The position numbers and the translations under genes were made by a program. From positions 37,073 through 101,072 of the forward strand of contig NZ_DF968083.1 in the NCBI RefSeq assembly GCF_001047135.2: 64,000 nucleotides of DNA, read 5' to 3'. The first letter of the stretch is position 1, and each line of letters starts with the position of its first letter. Source of the stretch: Fructobacillus tropaeoli (lineage in GTDB: Bacteria > Bacillota > Bacilli > Lactobacillales > Lactobacillaceae). Of this stretch, positions 1 to 64,000 are shown piece after piece. The notes under the pieces are model-generated. The model made no database searches. It had not been told where the DNA came from and saw only the letters and a list, made by a program, of their open reading frames with translations.

Positions 1-1002
1 ACCGGCACGACCAGTACGACCGATACGGTGAACATATGATTCTGGATCTTGTGGAATATCGAAGTTATAAACGTGACTCACGTCCTTAACATCCAAACCA
101 CGGGCCGCAACATCGGTTGCAACCAAAAGATTGATTTCATGGGCCTTAAATTGGTCCAAGACACGTGAACGCATTTGTTGCGTCAAATCACCGTGCAAAC
201 CAGCGGCACGGTAACCACGAGCTTCCAAACCACGAGCCAATTCTTCAACTCGACGCTTTGTCCGACCAAAGACAATGCCCAAGAATGGTTCTTGGATATC
301 GATTGTTCGAGTCAAGGCATCAAACTTTTCTTCGTGACGAACGCGAATGAAGTATTGGTCAACCAAATCAGTCGTCAATTGCTTGGCCTTGATTTGGATG
401 TATTCAGGATCCGTCATAAACTTCATCCCGATTCGCTTGATAGCTTCAGGCATTGTTGCAGAGAACAACAGTGTCTGACGGTGGTCAGGCACCTGAGCGA
501 TGATGGCTTCAATGTCATCCAAGAAGCCCATGTTTAACATTTCATCGGCTTCATCCAAAACCAATGTCTTAACACCGCCAAGCTTGGCAGTCTTACGGTT
601 AATATGGTCTAACAAACGACCAGGAGTTCCAACTAAAATTTGTGGGTGTGACTTCAAGCCCTTAATTTGTGGGCGGATATCGGCACCACCGAAGACAACT
701 TGGACGTTAACTGATTTGTCAGAACCAAGCTTCTTCAATTCTTCGGCAGTTTGGATTGCTAATTCTCGTGTAGGTGAGATGATAACGGCTTGGATGTTTT
801 GGTCATTCAAGTCGATGTTTTCCAAGATTGGCAGACCAAAAGCGGCTGTCTTACCAGTTCCTGTTTGGGCCTGGCCGATAACATCCTTACCTGCTAAGGT
901 CAAAGGAATTGTCTTTTCTTGAATGGGGGTTGCTTCAACGTAGCCGTGGGCTTCGATTGACTGCAAAATGGCTTGTGACAAGCCGAGTTCATTAAACTTC
1001 AA
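1..1002 (-). CDS. cshA: DEAD-box RNA helicase, CshA type (3' end beyond the window)
   Basis: ATP-dependent RNA helicase of the CshA group, which acts in mRNA turnover and ribosome assembly in the cytoplasm. The 334 visible codons hold the helicase core in order: Q motif (ATPIQ), motif I (AQTGTGKT), PTRELA, TPGR, the DEAD box, SAT, and HRIGRTGR right at the window edge. The C-terminal basic tail is off the left end. The start is TTG at 1002, seven bases after an AAGGAG-type ribosome site; no ATG fits. It follows murF and a serine hydrolase on the same strand, a common Lactobacillales neighbourhood. The family call is secure; choosing cshA over cshB rests on context. Confidence 0.93.
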   Translation of the reverse strand, partial: MKFNELGLSQAILQSIEAHGYVEATPIQEKTIPLTLAGKDVIGQAQTGTGKTAAFGLPILENIDLNDQNIQAVIISPTRELAIQTAEELKKLGSDKSVNVQVVFGGADIRPQIKGLKSHPQILVGTPGRLLDHINRKTAKLGGVKTLVLDEADEMLNMGFLDDIEAIIAQVPDHRQTLLFSATMPEAIKRIGMKFMTDPEYIQIKAKQLTTDLVDQYFIRVRHEEKFDALTRTIDIQEPFLGIVFGRTKRRVEELARGLEARGYRAAGLHGDLTQQMRSRVLDQFKAHEINLLVATDVAARGLDVKDVSHVYNFDIPQDPESYVHRIGRTGRAG

Positions 1003-1130
1003 AATTATCTCCTTTTTGCGCACTGGTTCAGCGCGCCCTGACTCATCGCTGAGTCGTTTCCATCATAACGTGCCACCAGCACGTCAAAAATACGCCAAGC
1101 AGTTTATAGTCTAGCTGGGCTGACTAGTGT
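1003..1130 (-). promoter_or_regulatory. structured leader of cshA
   Basis: The gap between the serine hydrolase stop and the cshA start reads, on the minus strand, as successive short hairpins: CGTGC...GCACG near 1071-1085, GACTC...GAGTC near 1041-1056, and a GCGC-based one near 1018-1035. None ends in a clear T-run, so they look like leader or spacer structures rather than a strong terminator. Confidence 0.4.
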
Positions 1131-2309
1131 TTAGGAAGGAAACTTCGTTCCCGTTAGCTTCTCGTATAGGTCATGTGAGAGGCCCTCAAAACTGTGGCCA
1201 TGGTAGTACTGATTTGCCAATAGAATCACAGCATCTTGGCTGTTCTTTCCCAAAACAACGGATGGCTCAAAACCGTTAAAAATCCCATGAGAGGTATAAA
1301 CGTTGCCATAACGATAAAGACCAGAGACATAGTGGGCCGGCAAGTGCTGAACCAAGAGGTCCATTGGGTTCTGAAAGAAATCACCATGGAAGAAGAGCCA
1401 ATAGGCTCGGTAAAGCATACCAGCTGACATCGCGAGGTTTCCTGTTCCGGTTTCTCGCTCATTTTCAACCTTGGTGACACCAGTTGGGCTAGTAGTATCT
1501 TTTTGATAACCCAAGGCAGCCTGATTATCCTCTGCAAACTGTGCATAATCGTCAATACCGAGCTTGTACTGCTTGTTATAGTAGTCTTTAACCATTTTGT
1601 CAAAGGACTGACCCGAAATCTTCATTAAAATACCAGCCAATAACCGGTAATTAACTGGCTGATAAGACCAACCAGCCCCAGAACCAATGGCCGCTCCGGT
1701 ATTCTCCGTATTATCAGCCGAGAATTGAGCGTTATCTTGATCAGACGTAAAAGTCGTTGGTTGCAACTTTTGCTGCAACGAAGAGGTCATCGTCAACAAA
1801 TCTCGAATCGAAATCTGATCAGCATTAGCAATGTTTGGATAAAACTGGCTGAGATGGTCGTCATAGGAAAGCTTCTTTTCAGAAACTGCCTGACCGACTA
1901 AAACAGCTGTCAAAAATTTAGCAGAAGACGCAATATGATAAACCGTTTGGGCATTATTGTGCACCTGCTTACTATAATTAGCAAAGCCATAACCCTGGTT
2001 CAAAATGATTTTGCCATCCTTGATGACTAGGGCTGTTCCGGTGAAATTTTCACTCTTTAATTTTTGATCAATTTCTTCAGCGGTCTGATTTTGCGGACTA
2101 AGGTCCTTTTTTAAATTTTTGACATTATCAGCCGAAAATATTTTTTGTTCAGTCAAAATCGCTTGTGGACTAGCTTTGGTTAACTTTGCTAAGCCAATTG
2201 CTCCCCCAATAAAAAGAATAATCAAGGTAATCGTTGACAAAGCCAGCCAATGGTCCCTAAACCATAGTGATTTTACTTTTTCTGGGAAAAGATCGACCCG
2301 TTTAAGCAT
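1131..2309 (-). CDS. membrane-anchored serine hydrolase, beta-lactamase/PBP family
   Basis: Class C beta-lactamase-like serine hydrolase, 392 residues. One membrane segment (about residues 19-40) anchors it, with the catalytic domain outside. The SxxK nucleophile motif is visible in the stretch ASSAK. The second motif, normally YxN, reads YQPVNY, so Pro sits where Asn is usual; a SHG near the C-terminus may be the third motif. It may be a D-alanyl-D-alanine carboxypeptidase or esterase; substrate unknown. I chose the ATG at 2309 because GGGAGGT lies five bases upstream. It overlaps the end of murF by eight bases, which suggests translational coupling and a cell-wall role. Confidence 0.8.
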   Translation of the reverse strand: MLKRVDLFPEKVKSLWFRDHWLALSTITLIILFIGGAIGLAKLTKASPQAILTEQKIFSADNVKNLKKDLSPQNQTAEEIDQKLKSENFTGTALVIKDGKIILNQGYGFANYSKQVHNNAQTVYHIASSAKFLTAVLVGQAVSEKKLSYDDHLSQFYPNIANADQISIRDLLTMTSSLQQKLQPTTFTSDQDNAQFSADNTENTGAAIGSGAGWSYQPVNYRLLAGILMKISGQSFDKMVKDYYNKQYKLGIDDYAQFAEDNQAALGYQKDTTSPTGVTKVENERETGTGNLAMSAGMLYRAYWLFFHGDFFQNPMDLLVQHLPAHYVSGLYRYGNVYTSHGIFNGFEPSVVLGKNSQDAVILLANQYYHGHSFEGLSHDLYEKLTGTKFPS

Positions 2310-63800: not shown

Positions 63801-63812
63801 TTTTTAATTCCG

Positions 63813-63983
63813 ATGGCTAATAAAAATTACGAATTAATGCACAACCACATCATGGAAACAACGGCTGCGCTATTCGTGACCGTTCCATTTTCCAAATTAA
63901 CGGTCAAGCAAATCTGCGAAGCCGCCAATATTAACCGCAATACCTTTTACCGGAACACAAAATGCCTATATATCAACGTTTAA
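63813..63983 (+). pseudogene. TetR-family regulator, truncated near the window edge
   Basis: MANKNYELMHNHIMETTAALF...LTVKQICEAANINRNTFYR is a normal TetR helix-turn-helix (about residues 10-48), after which the sequence leaves the family: HFKDK or similar is expected, but NTKCLYINV and a stop follow (63981-63983). Homology ends near 63952. Either an element is inserted here, or the gene is broken by rearrangement or a contig-edge error. It was probably the regulator of the adjacent MMPL gene. Confidence 0.75.
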
Positions 63984-64000
63984 ACAAAAATACGTGTAAA

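Follow-up and report, generated by a model that had tools for sequence, protein, structure and literature searches.

AAATCAG, a lineage-specific word over-represented in Fructobacillus tropaeoli and two relatives, and a candidate DNA uptake sequence

Why should one short, asymmetric word recur throughout a bacterial chromosome, in both orientations and within genes as well as between them? The question is raised by a stretch of 64,000 nucleotides from Fructobacillus tropaeoli (the window, meaning this stretch at its full length; positions 37,073 to 101,072 of contig NZ_DF968083.1, or G000:C6:37073-101072 in our coding of the genomes), in which AAATCAG is the commonest 7-mer. The window contains 74 copies of AAATCAG and 52 of its reverse complement CTGATTT, and this exact count of 126 is the figure that had been reached by hand in the original prediction, which was also right that base composition would yield about ten. 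Its split into about 27 intergenic and about 99 genic copies was close to our recount: with our own set of open reading frames (ORFs), the 8,620 intergenic bp hold 29 of the 126 sites and the other 55,380 bp hold 97. (Genes throughout are ORF calls made in this analysis, with no annotation used.) A Markov model of order 5, the maximal order, predicts 75 copies. We consider AAATCAG to be a lineage-specific word and, from its sequence patterns, a likely DNA uptake sequence, although we hold the considerations for and against that role to be about evenly balanced.

The excess extends to the whole genome. The draft of G000 (1,684,039 bases in 101 contigs) contains 1320 + 1064 = 2384 copies, compared with 84 + 97 = 181 copies of AAATCAG read backwards. 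In a 495-kb sample of G000, the word ranks first among 7-mers against a third-order Markov model (701 observed vs. 188 expected; z 37.3), which is part of what the original prediction had named as its support, and in a 414.7-kb sample an order-5 model predicts 346 copies where 559 are observed. Extreme over-representation of a single short non-palindromic word across a genome is also what characterizes the DNA uptake sequences (DUS) of Neisseriaceae and the uptake signal sequences (USS) of Pasteurellaceae.

Codon or dipeptide bias, which had been excluded on distributional grounds, can indeed be ruled out as the cause because the excess survives synonymous shuffling. When synonymous codons were shuffled within each gene (40 shuffles), the 217 and 349 genic copies in the two orientations compared with 58 and 78 expected, a 3.7- to 4.5-fold excess; in a smaller sample, 175 and 279 genic copies compared with maxima of 63 and 81 over 100 shuffles. 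Intergenic DNA is enriched 5-fold: it holds 125 copies, where an order-2 model built on such DNA gives 24. The claim that the word occurs in all reading frames is correct for most of them, but CTGATTT, which in G000 lies mainly in the frame xCT GAT TTx (221 of 279), is barred from the frame C TGA TTT (0 of 279) by the in-frame TGA.

The flanking bases are nearly flat, ruling out a longer motif. In intergenic DNA there is a preference for A at position -1 (0.58 vs. 0.29, a figure uncorrected for A-tracts) and little else. One-mismatch neighbours of AAATCAG occur at 0.5-1.4 of their order-2 expectation with the exception of AAATTAG (1.9-2.4). AAATTAG was considered as a second form of the word and rejected: G000 and G001 have it at roughly twice expectation, but F. 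pseudoficulneus is enriched as well, so it is not tied to the AAATCAG system. Apart from these, CATCCCC exceeds its codon-shuffle expectation 2.6- to 4.2-fold in the reverse-complement coding orientation in all ten Fructobacillus genomes tested.

The excess of AAATCAG is confined to three of 13 Fructobacillus genomes: G000, with its 2384 copies, G003 (2183) and the one-contig, 1.414-Mb genome G001 (1628), with the other ten having 253-558. Genome identities were assigned by matching counts, both of AAATCAG and of the control for Fructobacillus sp. EFB-N1 (G003/G013), F. pseudoficulneus (G010/G014) and F. ficulneus (G005/G015), and in the same manner for F. durionis (G004), F. fructosus (G006), F. 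papyriferae (G007), F. papyrifericola (G008), F. parabroussonetiae (G009), Fructobacillus sp. CRL 2054 (G011) and ESL0958 (G012). Sampled DNA gives order-3 excesses in the other carriers (591 vs. 175 in G001, 237 vs. 55 in EFB-N1), and the word occurs in all 20 sampled stretches of G001 at 0.65-1.70 per kb. Among the non-carriers the corresponding counts are 95 vs. 80 in F. pseudoficulneus, 62 vs. 62 in F. ficulneus and 29 vs. 17 in G012; F. fructosus, F. durionis, F. papyrifericola, F. papyriferae, G002 and G009 are all near expectation. A tree based on two proteins (761 columns, with G012 as the outgroup) unites G000, G003 and G001 in one clade (support 1.00), places F. pseudoficulneus and F. 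ficulneus beside it (0.95), and assigns F. fructosus, F. durionis, CRL 2054, F. papyrifericola, F. parabroussonetiae, F. papyriferae and G002 to a second clade (1.00). The expectation of strong conservation in relatives was thus borne out among the three carriers only; none of the ten remaining Fructobacillus genomes has a comparable excess. Nor is the motif family-wide: across 397 genomes in 40 genera of what we take to be the Lactobacillaceae, no other genome reaches 0.6 copies per kb (from rounded genome sizes and a table read by eye). One genome of another genus (G088, in g22) has an unusual ratio, with 1024 copies against 124 of the reversed word, at only about 0.5 per kb.

AAATCAG was gained within the carrier lineage, and from many parent words. 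In 58.5 kb of alignments between G000 and F. pseudoficulneus (78% identity), 13 of 114 G000 sites are present in F. pseudoficulneus; elsewhere this species has, among others, AAGTCAG (10 sites), AAATCAA (8), AAATCCG (7), AAATCTG (4), AAATCGG (3), or sequences with more differences or gaps (59). The convergence of so many different changes on one word would point to drive or selection for the word itself rather than to a single mutation mechanism. AAGTCAG, the most frequent parent, is depleted in G000 and G003 to 0.38-0.86 of its codon-shuffle expectation, the values for G001 being 0.87-0.99.

Once gained, the sites have tended to persist, with rare single deviations between relatives as in DUS and USS. 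G000 keeps 111 of 129 G001 sites (86%, vs. 53% for control words) and 13 of 19 F. pseudoficulneus sites (68% vs. 24%), and EFB-N1 keeps 72 of 78 G000 sites (92% vs. 73%, with 4 of 26 control words doing equally well or better). In a parsimony reconstruction over 111,837 columns that used F. pseudoficulneus and F. ficulneus for outgroups, the stem of G000 and EFB-N1 kept 173 of 173 ancestral sites, as compared with 2821 of 3322 control sites (0.85; binomial p 9e-13), whereas G001, in which comEC is reduced to a remnant, kept 144 of the 173, close to its control rate of 2669 of 3322 (0.80; p 0.39), and this contrast has the same direction in all six stretches. In the raw patterns, which do not depend on the reconstruction, 37 sites occur in G000 and EFB-N1 but not in G001, and 11 in G001 alone of the three, the controls numbering 788 and 1325 (Fisher p 4e-8). 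Gains numbered 13 for the stem and 10 each for G001 and G000, with control means per word of 1.8, 3.7 and 2.2, respectively, so that G001 is not free of gains. G001 therefore looks less constrained than its relatives, with the size of the difference hinging on the branch chosen for comparison.

The word is common in core DNA and rare in mobile or recently acquired DNA, again as in DUS and USS. Four contigs of G000 (C9, C11, C13 and C14) average 0.36 copies per kb (27 over 75.9 kb), compared with 1.62 per kb (674 over 416.3 kb) for the rest of the sample; these contigs were grouped after their densities had been seen, with C16 and C20 (12 kb in all, at 0.77 and 0.66 per kb) and C18 lying outside the group. 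Two of the four are prophage-like, C11 encoding tape-measure and sheath proteins and C13 encoding tape-measure, tail and terminase proteins; C9 (L122) is an island with AAATCAG at background that has a type III restriction-modification pair and a primase-like protein, and C14 encodes a UmuC-type polymerase and a Na/H exchanger. In syntenic stretches, the density per kb is 1.83 where the DNA aligns to the outgroups, 2.21 where it aligns to G001 or EFB-N1 alone, and 1.27 where it aligns to none of them (3.9 kb only). The contrast in density is thus with foreign rather than fast-evolving DNA.

Both orientations are present, and the mild 59:41 bias between them that was noted at the outset is real but is a property of the coding strand and not of replication. 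AAATCAG lies on the C-rich strand at 314 of 490 sites in the G001 sample (170:100 in 11 stretches of negative skew, 76:144 in nine of positive skew), which in raw form resembles replication polarity. With the leading strand assigned by GC skew, CTGATTT in genes that are co-directional with replication is ahead on the coding strand by 241:152 in G000 and 241:108 in G001. A replication polarity of the type seen in Chi or in FtsK-orienting polar sequences (KOPS) would demand that these ratios be inverted in head-on genes, but there CTGATTT is still ahead, by 38:23 and 38:24; orientation is thus set by the coding strand, and the apparent polarity is gone once genes are split into the two classes. 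Intergenic sites from both genomes number 74 on the leading and 97 on the lagging strand. Uptake sequences likewise lack a chromosomal orientation bias (PMC1939737), and within reading frames the reverse complement of the uptake sequence is favoured (PMC2346458).

Related species carry another word, as do related species that differ in DUS or USS dialect. AAAGTC is the top hexamer at order 3 in F. fructosus (236 observed, 114 expected), F. durionis (202, 119) and F. papyrifericola (282, 143), and in these three it occurs at 2.2-3.2 times its codon-shuffle expectation in both orientations and at 2.2-2.4 times expectation in intergenic DNA, compared with only 1.1, 1.3 and 1.0 in G000. Genome-wide, the extended form MAAAGTCR is strongly enriched over its control in G004 (1172/375), G006 (1429/430), G008 (1632/296), G009 (1463/320) and G011 (1177/385), more weakly in G002 (623/301), G007 (648/330), G010 (670/436) and G012 (447/281), and not at all in G000 (525/469), G001 (475/485), G003 (505/482) and G005 (540/522). 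Heptamers containing AAAGTC are conserved at 63-90% between F. durionis and CRL 2054 (control 36-40%) and at 46-76% between F. papyrifericola and F. parabroussonetiae (control 32-42%). Between F. fructosus and F. durionis, conservation of CAAAGTC (0.18-0.20) is little above its control (0.15-0.16), and that of AAAGTCG and AAAAGTC is further above it (0.27-0.41 vs. 0.16-0.20). The role of AAAGTC as a dialect is a prediction.

An uptake sequence requires machinery to read it, and competence genes are general in the genus. ComEC was matched in all 13 genomes and exceeded the curated cut-off in ten, the exceptions being a remnant in G001, a copy cut by a contig start in G003 and a split gene in G009. 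Open frames in the order comGA-comGG occur in all 13 genomes (ComGA alone was tested against a family), with a short comGF in G010; they are followed by a methyltransferase-like gene, so judged from its sequence, and then presumably by ackA. DprA exceeded the cut-off in 12 of the 13 and is split in G009. Divergence among com genes was of no help as a pointer to the receptor, since ComGD, ComGE, ComGF and ComGG evolve rapidly in all eight genomes compared and none stands out. The comGC frame has some 70-80 extra N-terminal residues in the three carriers (L250 in G000, L251 in G003, L252 in G001) that are lacking in the five other aligned genomes, with the pilin part intact; these residues may stem from inserted intergenic sequence that only looks like coding DNA.

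Among the available explanations, uptake of tagged DNA fits best because the word shows no replication polarity, other words occur in related species, its density on prophage-like contigs is at background, and com genes are present. The tag would be recognised by the competence pilus, through the ComG minor pilins, or by ComEA, such that the cell would favour free DNA of its own species over foreign DNA for binding and import. Imported fragments carrying the tag would replace untagged alleles through recombination, biased uptake (molecular drive, perhaps aided by selection) would let copies build up at any place where the sequence tolerates them, newly acquired DNA would start without copies, and species of the sister clade would use the dialect AAAGTC. 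We infer each of these steps: recognition of the word by the competence system, the protein responsible for it, and that import bias together with recombination was the source of the copies. Molecular drive is a published idea for the accumulation of uptake sequences (PMC1939737), and in Streptococcus pneumoniae the minor pilin ComGF and, less so, ComGD play a role in DNA uptake (PMC12040237). More tentatively, and with somewhat less confidence than we place in the uptake role itself, AAATCAG and AAAGTC could be two uptake dialects in a Gram-positive genus, both read by the tip of the competence pilus, with genomes being rewritten whenever the specificity of the receptor shifts.

The resemblance to known systems is close but incomplete. 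Sequence-specific uptake has been described in Pasteurellaceae and Neisseriaceae (PMC5031613, PMC1939737). The DUS of Neisseriaceae are short non-palindromic words present in hundreds to thousands of copies and both orientations, in core rather than recent DNA, with dialects and stringent conservation (PMC3630211, PMC2397512, PMC5031613), but they are 10-12 bp long instead of 7, belong to Gram-negative bacteria, and have the pilin ComP as a receptor, with a function that is experimental there and inferred here; that their essential core CTG also lies within CTGATTT is probably due to chance. The USS of Pasteurellaceae are similar in having hundreds to thousands of copies, no orientation bias, a more common reverse complement in reading frames and an excess in non-coding DNA (PMC2346458, PMC1939737), but they have a 9-10 bp core, AT-rich flanks and, in most species, a bias toward gene ends, whereas the flanks of AAATCAG carry little beyond the preference for A at position -1 and no such bias was seen. 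HIP1 of cyanobacteria is a very abundant short palindromic word whose role is unsettled; words of this type are likewise abundant and without a settled role, but AAATCAG is not palindromic. Searches of the literature (covering few subscription journals) found nothing on natural transformation in Fructobacillus, an uptake signal sequence in Lactobacillales or an over-represented DNA uptake sequence in Firmicutes; for comEC and competence in Fructobacillus the single match was a paper on mosquito microbiota, and the main text of a comparative genomic study of Fructobacillus (PMC4696137) makes no mention of competence, DNA uptake, transformation, repeats or RexAB.

Several observations weigh against an uptake role. 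The 7-bp core with nearly uninformative flanks is shorter than the 9-12 bp cores of the two known families, and a bias toward gene ends was not seen: three of four tests gave flat quintiles, and the deviation in the remaining one (p 0.008) was not an end bias. No carrier has a fully verified com set, since comGA of G000 is interrupted by one in-frame TAA, comEC of G003 lies at a contig end, and comEC of G001 (L196, L217) is a remnant with stops and frameshifts that has lost about 0.8 kb and lies beside a probably open comEA frame. The break in G001 may be recent, given that the codon-position pattern of the remnant (66% third-position differences) is like that of the EFB-N1 gene (63%). More generally, com genes are present throughout the genus, yet neither word tracks their state one to one: ComEC exceeds the cut-off in G012, G002 and G007, where the words are weak or missing, with G007 being weakly enriched despite its position inside the AAAGTC clade, whereas G009 has split comEC (L195) and dprA (L260), yet MAAAGTCR is about as dense in it as in G008, and it thus lends no support as a second natural experiment. 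Moreover, retention of G000 sites in G001 is unremarkable (111 of 171, or 65%, vs. 56% for controls, with 28 of 121 control words equal or higher), retention on the terminal branches exceeds that of controls by little (225 of 240 in G000 vs. 0.90, p 0.053; 223 of 240 in EFB-N1 vs. 0.87), and the contrast involving G001 is partly an effect of comparing a terminal with an internal branch.

Of the three functions raised in the original prediction, the uptake sequence has fared best, Chi has been weakened, and a binding site for some other chromosome-wide protein is still a candidate. As a Chi site, AAATCAG would be the word at which the RexAB (AddAB) nuclease switches to repair mode, and would be selected in the core chromosome for that reason. 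Both its over-representation and its low density on prophage-like contigs fit, as does the raw polarity in G001; the cognate enzyme is also available, with RexA present in G000 and nine other genomes compared, and RexB in 13 of 13 (all below the curated cut-off), with an unbroken frame in the three carriers. Chi of AddAB/RexAB or RecBCD is similarly a short over-represented word that is rare in acquired DNA, but that of E. coli has leading-strand polarity and related words across 85 proteobacterial species (PMC8022716), whereas AAATCAG follows the coding strand, even in head-on genes, and is in strong excess in three species. In addition, RexB occurs whether a species has AAATCAG, AAAGTC or neither word, and RexA and RexB of G001 retain a codon-position pattern like that of constrained genes (full-length alignment; third-position shares 0.73 and 0.74), yet sites in that genome were kept at the control rate; we find a Chi function quite improbable. 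A recently acquired or re-tuned site for another protein acting in nucleoid structure, segregation or recombination would suit the presence of copies in every sampled stretch of G001, their full retention on the stem of G000 and EFB-N1, and the sharp 7-bp core with AAATTAG as the only neighbour above 1.4 of its expectation. No candidate protein turned up, though no search aimed at one was made, and a site that organises the chromosome would be expected genus-wide, with the word of the second clade calling for a parallel re-tuning; such a site seems unlikely, if less so than Chi.

Two further explanations attribute the word to enzymes that modify DNA or to mutation. Enzymes of the type III, type IIG and bacteriophage exclusion (BREX) kinds typically recognise asymmetric words, and the type III pair on contig C9 could in principle supply a methyltransferase or restriction system recognising AAATCAG; but restriction is expected to yield avoidance and not excess, and the pair itself sits on an island with the word at background, making this very improbable. 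Equally hard to credit is that codon and dipeptide usage, or a mutation or repair bias that depends on sequence context, produced the excess as a by-product. Other words do deviate, CATCCCC among them, but AAATCAG sites derive from many parents via different base changes, both orientations and intergenic DNA alike remain enriched after codon shuffling, and prophage-like contigs of the same genome are not enriched.

Individual sites in the window illustrate these histories. The P-type ATPase encoded at 20080-22758 shares 99% identity with its counterpart in EFB-N1 and 92% with the one in F. pseudoficulneus; its gene contains an inverted pair AAATCAG...CTGATTT (21344..21371) that is kept in G013 and G001 and lacking in G014 and G015. 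Copies on the forward strand that are common to relatives and outgroups occur at 12136..12142 (G001 and outgroup G014), 18034..18040 and 40177..40183 (both G013, G001 and G014), and 22721..22727 and 33254..33260 (both G013, G001 and G015); a reverse-strand copy at 40415..40421 is kept in G013 and reads AAATCGG in G001. Same-orientation pairs on the forward strand lie 9 bp apart in an rlmD-like gene (4316..4331) and 12 bp apart in a metE-like gene (39274..39292), with both of the latter copies kept in G013. A reverse-strand tandem repeat of period 47 (3722..3849; 2.8 copies) has CTGATTT in its unit, with exact intergenic copies at 3738 and 3785. Inverted pairs CTGATTT...AAATCAG that are both kept in G001 occur at 5627..5644, where the pair is intergenic, and at 58949..58994; of the intergenic pair at 27662..27708 the first copy is kept in G013 and neither in G001, and the intergenic pair at 51611..51672, which surrounds a separate GC-rich hairpin, is absent from G001. 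Terminator hairpins are unlikely to be the cause of the excess because few inverted pairs are terminator-like; pairs less than 60 bp apart are in opposite orientation in 20 of 30 and 20 of 29 cases, with no large excess. Motif pairs forming terminator-like hairpins followed by T runs were seen at L123:4658 and L150:17945. The window also contains two T-box leaders, at 27781-28043 (+) and 39900-40145 (-), the latter just upstream of the metE-like gene.

Uptake sequences have been described in two Gram-negative families, and the reason for their existence, whether self-recognition, molecular drive or repair, is debated. If AAATCAG is such a sequence, a Gram-positive genus would show a tag that arose, took two forms and perhaps decays among close relatives, so that its rise and loss could be dated at each site and compared with the condition of the com genes, and adding the tag to DNA might ease the transformation of these lactic acid bacteria.

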